Positions 5,312-43,447 of a stretch of 64,000 nt of DNA are shown in pieces. The DNA is taken from contig OY997645.1 of the NCBI GenBank assembly GCA_963921795.1, positions 27,350,159 to 27,414,158 of the forward strand, given 5' to 3'. A program made the position numbers and the translations under genes. Positions within the stretch are counted from its first letter, which is position 1; every line of letters begins with the position of its first letter. Origin of the DNA: Nannobrachium achirus (lineage: Eukaryota > Chordata > Actinopteri > Myctophiformes > Myctophidae). Under the pieces are notes generated by a model that worked only from the letters and a program-made list of their open reading frames with translations, did not search any database and had not been told where the DNA came from.

Positions 5312-5374
5312 TTAGTGATGAGGACAATTATACTGTATGAAGATAGGTTGAAAAGTGGTGAAGTTGTCCTTTAA
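5312..5374. mobile_element. TTAA MITE, right-end fragment
   Basis: GATAGGTTGAAAAGTGGTG followed by a CCTTTAA-type end matches the right end of the MITE at 2551-2971 and ends at TTAA (5371-5374). Confidence 0.65.
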
Positions 5375-12054: not shown

Positions 12055-12192
12055 TATCCAAGGTGCTTTACATTGATGTGCATTACGTTCATCCATTCAT
12101 ACACCGATGGCGCAGGAAACCATGCAAAGAACAAACCTGCTCATCGGGAGCAATTAGGGGTTCAGCGTCTTGCTCAAGGACACTTTGACATT

Positions 12193-37765: not shown

Positions 37766-37960
37766 GTGGGCTCGCTGAAAGGCGAGACCAGTATGTTATA
37801 CCAAATCTTTATAGGCCAAGTTTATTCTCCTCAAAAAATACAGTACATAGGCAGGGCCCTTAGCCAATGAGGAGCAGCATTCTTGGTGTCATCACCACCA
37901 ACAAGTGCAACCTGATATAAATGACAACAACACGTGGGCTTGAGACCAGTATGTTAGTTA
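37766..37960 (+). mobile_element. HINE-like family 2, 5' part
   Basis: GTGGGCTCGC-TGAAA-GGCGAG palindrome, then GACCAGTATGTTATACCAA and GCAGGGCCCTTAGCCAATGA. The latter two strings are repeated at 43272-43375. The 3' end is not found nearby; the giant inverted repeat begins 75 bp downstream. Confidence 0.7.
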
Positions 37961-38928
37961 TATCAGTATTGTGAGGCGCGCTACACACATTTGCGACAGC
38001 TATCGTGTCAGAAAGAGGGGGGGAGGGGGAGGTCCAATGCATTGTCAATGAAAGGTTGTTTGGTGTTTTGTCGCTGCCGTGTCTCAAGCTATAATCCAGT
38101 ATCTGACTTAAAGTCCTGTTCGCAATTTGGTGTTAGGGGAGTTTCTCACCTGAACTGAGTCAGTGGGTCCCTAGACATGAATAATCACAGAGGTGCTCGT
38201 CCGCCATAGTGCCAGGAATGGCGCAATGGCCAAATCAAATATGGCCACCAATCGGCTATGATGAAAATCTAACTTTTCTGTTTCTGGGTGTATATGCACG
38301 TGTAATACCTCCATTTGGACTAATTGGGGTGTGGGGAATTCATTTCTGATATTGTTTTGACCATTTTGGGTGATTTGGACCTCAAAAGGTCATGGTCAAG
38401 GTCATTTTGCTATTCCGAAGACCGTGGGCCATAACTTGGCCATTGTTAGGAGTAAAAACAGGTGCAGTAGGTCTAAATCAACTAATGCTGACATGTATAA
38501 TTCATTTCTGACATTGTTTTGACCATTAAGGATCATCTTGTCTTTGAAATATCAATGTCAATGCCATTTTTCAAAAACGATTTTGTTCATTACTTGCACT
38601 TTTATAGTATTTTTTGTAAGTTTGTTACTATTTTATAGTAAGTTTGTTTTGTTTAGAACAAAAAACATACTAGTGAGAAATACAACAACTAAACACCCAC
38701 ATTTAACTTTAAAGGGGGGTTTTAAATGAGTGTTTAAATGAGCAAATAAGACTATTTACAAATAAAAGTGACAAATAAAATTACACAACAAAATAACACA
38801 CAAAATTAAATAACAATTTCCCTCAAAGTGCACCATATTGTGATTGTGTGCATGCAAGTTAGTATGAGGTGTTTTTACAGGATGGATTTGTCATTGTTCC
38901 ATGGCAAAATATGATGCACAGAACTTCA

Positions 38929-39570
38929 TCAGTTTCGAGTGTCTTGCTTCAGACATGGCAGGAGTGTACTAAAGTCAAAGTCCTCCTTCCATCCATCAGA
39001 GCTTGACATTGACTTTTTGAGGCAGTTGTCCTTTGGACAAGTATATTTCCCATTCACTTGTCCGGGGACAAAAGTCACTTGACCCCCCTTTCTCCCTCCA
39101 CTCCATAGTATGGGCACTTGTCACAGACAACAGGACAAGCCTTTATGTCATGCCCTGTTCCATGTTCCATTGGTTCTAGTCTTTCCTCAGGTTCCTTGGC
39201 TGTTGCAAGCAGGTGGCAAGAAATGCGCTAGAAAGGTGCCTTGTTGGTCTCAGCAGTTGTACTTCTCTGCTACCAATGCTGTGTCTTGTTCTGTCAAGGT
39301 CTTTGACTCTCCAAAGTTTGTTAGATATTGTACTTGGTCAGAAGCCATAACTACATGTTTAATCCTCACCTGGCCCATGCAGTCATCTCCTGTCTCCAAG
39401 GCATATGTGCTTTGATCACTGTCTTGGCTAGTGGTGCTCCAAGATGAGACTGCTTGATGCAGTTTAGTGCCATACTGCTGCCAGATCTCCTTCATCCCCA
39501 GTGCTTGGAAATATGGGGTGTAGTATAGCAGTAATGTGAAGGAGACTACAACTCTCTGGGGTCCGCTCAT
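38929..39570 (-). pseudogene. Unrecognised reading-frame remnant, left arm
   Basis: The minus-strand frame 39570-39250 encodes 106 residues ending KTLTEQDTALVAEKYNC. A separate downstream frame (39117-38929) contains YTCPKDNCLKKS, a possible CxxxxC pair. The two are separated by stops. The C-terminal 27 residues match the right-arm frame at 25 positions. No known domain is recognised. It is likely a decayed gene of the inverted-repeat element, duplicated by the palindrome, not a host gene. Confidence 0.4.
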
Positions 39571-39715
39571 AGTTAGGTTAGTGAAGGTTAGGGATAGGCT
39601 TAGTTATAATGGAGGCTGTACATGCACCAGGTGTCAGCCTCCTCAATCCTATTCAAGATGTCTGGGATCTCTTCTCCACTAGCGACATCATCAACAGAGA
39701 CAACAGAGCTGATAA

Positions 39716-39962
39716 TGGTAAATGGACTGCATTTACAGTATATAGCGCTCTTCTCCAAAGCGCTGTACAATCTATTTCACATTCGCCCAACAAACACATT
39801 CACACATACATTCACACCATGAAACCATGCAAGGTGCTCATCGGGAGCAGTTAGGGGTTCAGTGTCTTGCTTAAGGACACTTCGACAAATAAGCAGGAGG
39901 AGCCAGAAATCGACCCTGGAACCTTCAGATTCCAAGGCAGCTGTTCTACCTACATCGCCACA
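39716..39962 (-). mobile_element. SINE inserted near the centre of the palindrome
   Basis: In reverse it reads: tRNA-like head GTAGGTAGAACAGCTGCCTT, B-box-like GGTTCCAGGGTCGAT, body with GTGTCCTTAAGCAAGACACT then GAACCCC, and tail GAGAAGAGCGCTATA...AATGCAGTCCATTTACCA. It is the same family type as 342-622. Because only the left side of the palindrome has it, insertion came after the inversion formed. Confidence 0.8.
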
Positions 39963-40170
39963 AGCTTGAATGGACACCATATTCCGAACACACAGCTGGA
40001 GAGCTGTTTGTTCTCCTCAGACACCCAGAATTTGTAAAGTTGATGAGGGATGGGTGCGTCTGTCGACTCTGTTATCTCTGATGATGATGAGTGGCTCCCT
40101 GCAAAAGGGGCTGGAGGTGAAGAGATCCCAAAGTTTGAACTAGATTGGAGAGGCTGTCACCAAACTGCTG

Positions 40171-40575
40171 GTGCATGTGGAGTCAACTGGCCCTATTATA
40201 ACTAAACCTACCCATAACCCTTACCTAATTGAGGGAATAATGGGTCGCCAGGATTATGAGTGGACCCCAGAGAGTTGTCGTAGTGATACTTCCAAGCACT
40301 GGGGATTAAGTAGATCTGGTAGCAGTATGGCACTAGGTGTGCAGCGGCACATGCTTCTACAGCATCAAGCAGTCTCTCATCTTGGAGCACCACTAGCCAA
40401 GACAGTGATCAGGGGACATATGCCTTGGAAACTGGAGATGACTGCATGGGCCAGGTGGGGGACTAAGCATGCAGCTATGGCTTCTGACCGAATACAATAT
40501 CTAACAAACTTTGGAGAGGCAAAGACCTTGACAGAACAAGACACAGCATTGGTAGCAGAGAAGTACAACTGCTGA
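40171..40575 (+). pseudogene. Unrecognised reading-frame remnant, right arm
   Basis: 134-residue frame on the plus strand, the mirrored counterpart of the left-arm frame, again ending KTLTEQDTALVAEKYNC. It extends further upstream (YEWTPESCRSDTSKHWG) than the left-arm frame, which diverges by indels in that part. A later frame (40666-40887) covers the segment where the left arm has extra sequence. No domain recognised. Confidence 0.4.
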
Positions 40576-41609
40576 GACCAACAAGGCACCTTTCTAGTGC
40601 ATGTCTTGCCACCTGCTTGCAACAGCCAAGGAACCTGAGGAAAGACTAGAACCAATGGAACATGGATGGATGCAAGGAACACTTCGACTCTCGAGGATAT
40701 GGCTACCTTGCTGATGGATATCGGTGCATCATATTTTGCCATGGAACAATGGCAAATACATCCTGTAAAAACACATCATACTAACTTGGATGCACACAAT
40801 CACAATATGGTGCACTTTGAGGGAAATTGTTATTTAATTTTGTGTGTGCTTTTGTTGTGTGATTTTATTTGTCACTTTTATTCATAAATAGTCTTATTTG
40901 CTCATTTAAACACCCATTTAAAACCCCCCTTTAAAGTTAAATGTGGATGTTTACTTGTTGTATTTCTCACTAGTATGTCTTTTGTTATAAACAAAACAAA
41001 CGTAATATAAAATAGTAACAAACTTACAAAAAATACTATAAAAGTGCAAGTAATGAACACAATCGTTTTTGAAAAATGGCATTGAAATTTATATTTCAAA
41101 GACAAGATGATCCTTAATGGTCAAAACAATGTCAGAAATGAATTATACATGTCAGCATTAGTTGATTTAGACCTACTGCACCTGTTTTTACTCCTAACAA
41201 TGGCCAAGTTATGGCCCACGGTCTTCGGAATAGCAAAATGACCTTGACCATGACCTTTTGAGGTCCAAATCACCCAAAATGGTCAAAACAATATCAGAAA
41301 TGAATTCCTCACACCCCAATTAGTCCAAATGGAGGTATTACACGTGCATATACACCCAGAAACAGAAAAGTTAGATTTTCATCATAGCCGATTGGTGGCC
41401 ATATTTGATTTGGCCATTGCGCCATTCCTGGCACTATGGCGGACGAGCACCTCTGTGATTATTCATGTCTAGGGACCCACTGACTCAGTTCAGGTGAGAA
41501 ACTCCCCTAACACCAAATTGCGAACAGGACTTTAAGTCAGATACTGTATTAGCTAGCTTGAGACACGGCAACGACGAAAAACCAAACAACCTTGCATTGA
41601 CAATGCATT

Positions 41610-42061
41610 AGTACGGCGCCCCCAGTGGCCATTCTCAGACGATGTTTCACGCATATGTGTGAGTCCAGCCTCACAGTTCGCTCCTCGCGGCTCCTTATGG
41701 CCGCGTGTAGCTACGCCACACAGACAGTCAGTCCTCTCATATCTTATATTACATTTGTAAACTGCAGCCAGCGGTTTTTGTTTGTTTGTCAGTTTGTCAG
41801 TCAGACACGACCAAATCCAGCACTCCAATTGGCTATAACGTCCGCCCAGTCCAGGGGATCTTAACGTCCGCCCAGCCCATGGATCTGTAACCCTACACCA
41901 GCCCATACAACAACGGGCGCGCAGCAGCGACAGCCTGCATTCTGCTACCTCCCCTCCTCTGTCCCTCTGCTCTCAAGACAAGTAGGAATAGGGAAGAAAT
42001 AGCCAACCAGCAACCAAGCTTTTCTTCTGGAATTAACAAACTAGAATCCACTGTTACTGGG
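41610..42061. other. Unique DNA, nothing recognised
   Basis: Contains the near repeat AACGTCCGCCCAG(T/C)CCA twice (41838 and 41863). No gene signal. Confidence 0.35.
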
Positions 42062-43271: not shown

Positions 43272-43447
43272 AGTATGTAATACCAAAACGTTATATACTT
43301 TATATACTTTTATTCTCCTAAAGAAAGTGACTGACAGTACAAAGGCAGGGCCCTTAGCCAATGAGGAGCAGCCAAAGGGTAGATATTTGTGCCCATACAT
43401 GGTGTTCCATGCGAGCCCACACTGTTTCGTAGGAACAGTATTTCTAG
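43272..43447 (+). mobile_element. HINE-like family 2, 3' part
   Basis: AGTATGTAATACCAAA and GCAGGGCCCTTAGCCAATGA match 37793-37875. The end has GCGAGCCCAC, hairpin ACTGTT-TCGTAGG-AACAGT (43421-43439), ATTT, CTAG and T. Compared with the full-length copy, one stem pair is C-G in place of T-A: a compensatory change. The left boundary is exactly the LTR end. Confidence 0.75.

Follow-up and report, generated by a model that had tools for sequence, protein, structure and literature searches.

A young palindromic foldback transposon family in Nannobrachium achirus, probably derived from an Academ-like transposase gene

The window analyzed here, i.e., the whole 64,000-nucleotide stretch of the Nannobrachium achirus genome (C8:27350159-27414158 in the 1.66-Gb assembly), carries a 3,460-bp palindrome that is most probably (a probability of about 0.87) a non-autonomous foldback DNA transposon, the arms of which are 3' ends of an Academ-like gene joined head-to-head and which would be mobilized in trans. 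Hence, it is an ordinary kind of thing, a foldback transposon, in an unusual family, for which a likely transposase relative can be named, with a recent burst of copies.

Results

Structure of the palindrome

The initial annotation proposed a giant inverted repeat at positions 38036-41609, and both blastn of the region against itself and repeat finding demonstrated that the inverted repeat is real. Positions 38036-38932 aligned with 41609-40711 at 96.6% identity over 899 columns and 39159-39514 with 40666-40286 at 87.9% over 381 columns; repeat finding on the window returned a single arm pair of 841 nt (97%) and further inner pairs at 92-96%. The borders had to be moved, however: when the ends of the window copy were aligned with those of 20 others fetched from the genome, the element was placed at 38092-41551, starting with TAATMCAGTATCTGRCTT. 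The outermost 56-58 bp of the proposed interval belong to a separate, older palindromic MITE. Nearly all of the element is made up of two inverted arms of approximately 1.5-1.6 kb each, which are 97-100% identical over the outer ~525 bp, 72-83% identical in the junction-proximal blocks, and uneven (86-100%) in between. Contrary to the previous statement that no transposon terminus could be recognized, the element has defined termini (TAATMCAGTATCTG) and target-site duplications, in the window copy the 4-bp motif GCTA at 38088-38091 and 41552-41555 (both read on the plus strand).

When the window flanks were joined without the element, they formed a 243-bp near-palindrome, matched at 88-95% identity by 40 scored places of 1,206 candidates. 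The element thus interrupts an older palindromic MITE of ~243 bp near the center of the MITE, the halves of which lie outside the element at 37970-38091 and 41554-41675. All four uninterrupted MITE relatives that were read have nine extra central bases in comparison with the joined window flanks, so the exact target inside the GCTA-rich center is uncertain. Another dispersed repeat, a direct repeat of ~60 bp (84% identical), was noticed on both sides of the element, at 37821-37878 and 43309-43372.

As stated in the initial annotation, each arm contains an open frame ending KTLTEQDTALVAEKYNC, and the two frames lie on opposite strands, 39250-39603 on the minus and 40144-40575 on the plus strand, both directed outward. 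Pfam searches with five window frames assigned the mirrored frames to no family and gave one sub-threshold match, to another window frame. Comparison of a window frame with viral and prokaryote collections revealed no confirmed relative, and scanning the window for Rfam families and tRNA genes gave no match. The unpaired part consists of a middle of ~109 bp (39953-40061), close to the loop of ~105 bp in the initial annotation, plus an insert of ~235 bp (39718-39952). The insert includes a dispersed, SINE-like repeat at 39714-39913; related pieces are present in the window at 408-611 and 12113-12190, and one copy became fixed within the palindrome.

Copies, ends, and target duplications

When the genome was searched with a 565-bp piece of the left arm, 40 of 1,929 candidate places were scored and listed. 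Both arms were present in all 20 loci fetched, 12 of which were chosen with both arms listed and eight with one arm listed. The exact 25-bp end pattern occurred 569 times genome-wide (289 forward and 280 reverse) and the control pattern did not occur in either orientation. Among the first 100 listed ends (contigs 1-4), 74 formed 37 pairs, 32 of them spanning 3.2-3.6 kb, and the remaining 26 had no exact partner within 12 kb.

Target duplications were examined at 24 loci and counted at 22, with L028 and L049 left out as no partner end was recognized. Identical 3-bp flanks bordered 19 of the 22 copies with two recognizable ends; the three other cases were the window copy with its 4-bp GCTA, L018 with no duplication, and L051 with palindromic flanks. 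The check suggested in the initial annotation, a search for further copies with common outer ends and flank duplications, thus gave a positive result.

Two long end pairs were considered as autonomous candidates and rejected: L050 (7,495 bp) turned out to be a palindromic copy with an internal duplication and inserts, and L051 (8,161 bp) a palindromic copy with a nested retrotransposon. A third long end pair (C3:16249716-16256739) is a candidate judging by its end positions, and L046 was discarded as a partial copy adjoining unrelated sequence. The nested frame in L051 (C3:3758540-3766860) is Pao/BEL-like (DUF1759, Peptidase_A17). The flanks of this locus are perfectly palindromic for at least 40 bp, consistent with a second insertion inside a palindrome or with a rearranged end.

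Eleven copies (the window copy, L009-L016, L018, and L019) differed pairwise by only 0.0-0.2%, and the remaining ten aligned copies diverged from them by 2.2-2.8%. The young eleven had 17 polymorphic columns, all of them singletons, as expected from a recent burst from one source. The near-identity of these copies suggests that the palindromic element spread recently.

A full-length relative of the mirrored frames

The element C10:12518397-12525322 is 6,926 bp long, bordered by a CAT/CAT target duplication and by terminal inverted repeats (TIRs) of 569 bp (98.8% identical), and it contains a single 1,671-codon open frame. The best match of the second of two Academ probe peptides (at least 150 matches each) lies in this frame. 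In tblastn against the single element, with composition statistics off, the C10 protein matched both arms: identity was 65% over 102 columns in the left frame 39250-39603 (E 3e-33) and 60% over 88 columns in the right frame 40144-40575 (E 9e-24). The mirrored frames are therefore parts of a decayed transposase gene with a full-length open relative in the same genome, and the element, named in the initial annotation as the best candidate in the window for an undescribed one, is not of an unknown kind.

The similarity extends beyond the gene, since the flank of the C10 frame matches the palindrome terminus. Over the outer ~227 columns, the C10 element and the arms differ at two places. Over the full 425-bp terminus common to both elements (38092-38516 on the plus and 41127-41551 on the minus strand), the palindrome is only 89-90% identical to either end of the C10 element. 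Counted block by block, the coding part has 3-30 differences from C10 that are common to both arms, and the terminal block that follows has 21. Two 3' non-coding blocks of 150 columns, where the alignment is poor, have 79 and 89. The divergence of the terminus and of these non-coding blocks indicates that the C10 element is a relative and not the direct parent of the palindrome.

The first 500 codons of the C10 frame were found at three genome places only: C10 itself, an 89% copy with an 876-codon frame, and an 86% copy with a stop. Judged by exact ends, palindromic copies are approximately a hundredfold more common than such places. Neither of two other candidates was retained: L054, the second match of the second probe, had no significant match to the element, and the C17 protein alone matched it weakly (E 0.043). 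The searches with the helper proteins in the viral and prokaryote collections revealed no confirmed relative.

A common junction

The blastn map and alignment allowed us to lay the palindrome out on C10 coordinates. The left arm (38092-39717, minus strand) runs from 6926 down to ~5323 and is followed by the ~235-bp insert; then comes a one-sided segment (39953-40061, minus strand) from 5315 down to 5206, with the head-to-head junction at ~40061, and the right arm (40061-41551, plus strand) runs from ~5326 up to 6926. Each arm therefore comprises about the last fifth of the C10 frame, with deletions, together with the terminus. The same 123 nt of the C10 frame are missing from both arms. A complete transposase frame is absent from the palindrome; what is left of it are two indel-bearing fragments, of 117 and 143 codons.

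The position of the insert and the junction (5206 | 5326-5333) were common to the window copy and all ten other copies mapped, which represent all divergence groups. A single head-to-head junction in all mapped copies implies that the palindrome probably formed in one founding event.

Outward-facing pairs of probe matches

Among the 150 matches listed for each of the two Academ-like probes, neighbors less than 6 kb apart faced outward in 10 and 25 cases and inward in none for either probe, with three and zero same-strand pairs. The 35 outward pairs were judged from match position and strand alone. Eight of the 35 had a spacing of 1,337-1,345 bp and probably belong to one family, so the pairs are not independent. 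The prevalence of outward over inward pairs (35 versus 0) raises the idea that the palindromic architecture may recur.

Relation to Academ

Academ elements are defined by an XPG-like nuclease in the transposase, which also has a cysteine-rich C-terminal segment. The motif order of the mirrored frames resembles that of Academ transposases, and the two probe peptides, presumably Academ transposases, found the open frames of C10 and C17. The C10 protein and the C17 protein (1,493-codon frame) are related at 21% identity over 1,180 columns (E 1e-35); EEADTR, DTD, and TGxD are conserved between them and several C-terminal cysteines align. These may correspond to the XPG-type motifs and the Academ-type cysteine segment, respectively. 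Pfam assigned the C-terminal 628 residues of the C10 protein to no family and gave only a sub-threshold DUF6589 match for the C17 protein, and no XPG-like fold was matched in either protein in the Pfam and PDB searches; the label "Academ-like" and not Academ is used on this account. The C17 locus (L052, C17:11576000-11583500) represents a second Academ-like lineage, and other open frames of 1,499-1,503 codons appeared among the listed matches of the first Academ probe.

Zator, another superfamily considered here, has an ISAzo13-like transposase. PMC10045372 gives target duplications of 3 or 4 bp for AcademX, 9 or 10 bp for AcademH, and 3 bp for Zator. The duplications of the palindrome (3 bp in 19 of 22 copies, 4 bp in one) fit AcademX and Zator and do not fit AcademH, and the CAT/CAT duplication of the C10 element fits AcademX as well.

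Discussion

How the palindrome could be formed and moved

The presented data fit a route in which one inverted duplication would have made the palindrome, perhaps through a strand or template switch in gap repair; PMC4168063 proposes that defective copies of Galileo arise by such a template switch. The nearly identical outer ends may be recognized by the transposase that the 6.9-kb element, or a close unseen relative, encodes, and the palindrome would then be moved in trans by a C10-type transposase. The remnant frames would yield no working protein, and the long hairpin RNA would be a by-product at most.

The outward-facing pairs, seen in two Academ-like lineages of this genome, allow a broader speculation, which we find rather unlikely, that such transposons produce inverted dimers of the gene 3' end again and again and not by a single accident. 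The transposition mechanism itself, in which a structure-specific nuclease would act at a folded end, might keep creating mobile palindromes that outnumber the few full-length copies.

Alternative explanations

Apart from its unusual shape, nothing suggests that the palindrome is an isolated inverted duplication or was produced by the assembly, and with both arms present in every fetched locus and target duplications in most copies, such an origin is hardly credible. The arms have diverged by up to 28% near the center, as might be expected if two single-armed elements had landed next to each other, facing in opposite directions. The single junction that the window copy has in common with the ten others mapped argues against two insertions, as do the identical 123-nt deletion in both arms and the lack of any terminus or target duplication seen between them, which makes this scenario very improbable. 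A locus retained for its function, either as a source of a hairpin RNA processed into small RNAs or of a small protein encoded by the mirrored frames, finds some support in the long hairpin predicted for the central 1.2 kb (-634.5 kcal/mol, a value without a shuffle control at such length) and in the frame kept intact in several copies. Strong folding is expected of any palindrome, however, the left and right frames differ by indels and frame changes, and stops interrupt the frame in many other copies; we thus regard a retained function as quite unlikely. Double-stranded RNA formed by a transcript through the palindrome is physically plausible. Going by the sequence, mobility appears to be the only supported function of the locus.

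There is some chance, a minor one in our estimation, that the same foldback element descends from a parent outside Academ, which would then belong to Zator, to a different superfamily that also makes 3-bp duplications, or to one not yet named. The duplication length is not decisive, as Zator likewise produces 3 bp, the XPG nuclease was not recognized in the helper protein by Pfam or PDB, the C17 relative reached only the sub-threshold DUF6589 match, and the Academ identity leans partly on motif resemblance. In favor of Academ-like parentage are the 3- or 4-bp duplications reported for AcademX and the discovery, with the Academ probes, of C10 and C17 frames that are mutually related over 1,180 columns.

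Relation to known systems and significance

The non-autonomous, Academ-like foldback transposon shares with AcademX the length of the target duplications and, in C10, the large single open frame, and it may share the motifs and the C-terminal cysteines as well. It differs in being a palindromic derivative without a transposase. A parallel in architecture is provided by extended-TIR copies of Galileo, a Drosophila element of the P superfamily, in which the final piece of the transposase frame was recruited into long TIRs, exceeding 500 bp in one copy, and other elements were inserted in the TIRs (PMC4168063). The transposase family is different, and the 7-8 bp duplications of Galileo and the P superfamily (PMC4168063) contrast with the mostly 3-bp ones found here. 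PMC4168063 described the recruitment of the frame end into TIRs as a trait known until then from Galileo alone. A similar outcome is encountered here in another transposase family, where it defines a young, high-copy family. Tetris foldback elements likewise have very long TIRs, a short middle, and no complete frame, and no autonomous copy was found according to PMC4079207, unlike the present case, in which the genome contains an open-frame relative whose ends are almost identical. The literature searched by title and the beginning of the abstract, a set outside Repbase Reports and most subscription papers, contained no Academ foldback family.

Foldback elements are often orphans, the transposase of which is not known. 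The coexistence in one genome of the palindrome, a full-length open-frame relative, a common junction, and a recent burst makes both the route of formation and the moving enzyme testable. If the C10 transposase works, N. achirus would provide a candidate for an Academ-like system that was active in an animal genome until recently.
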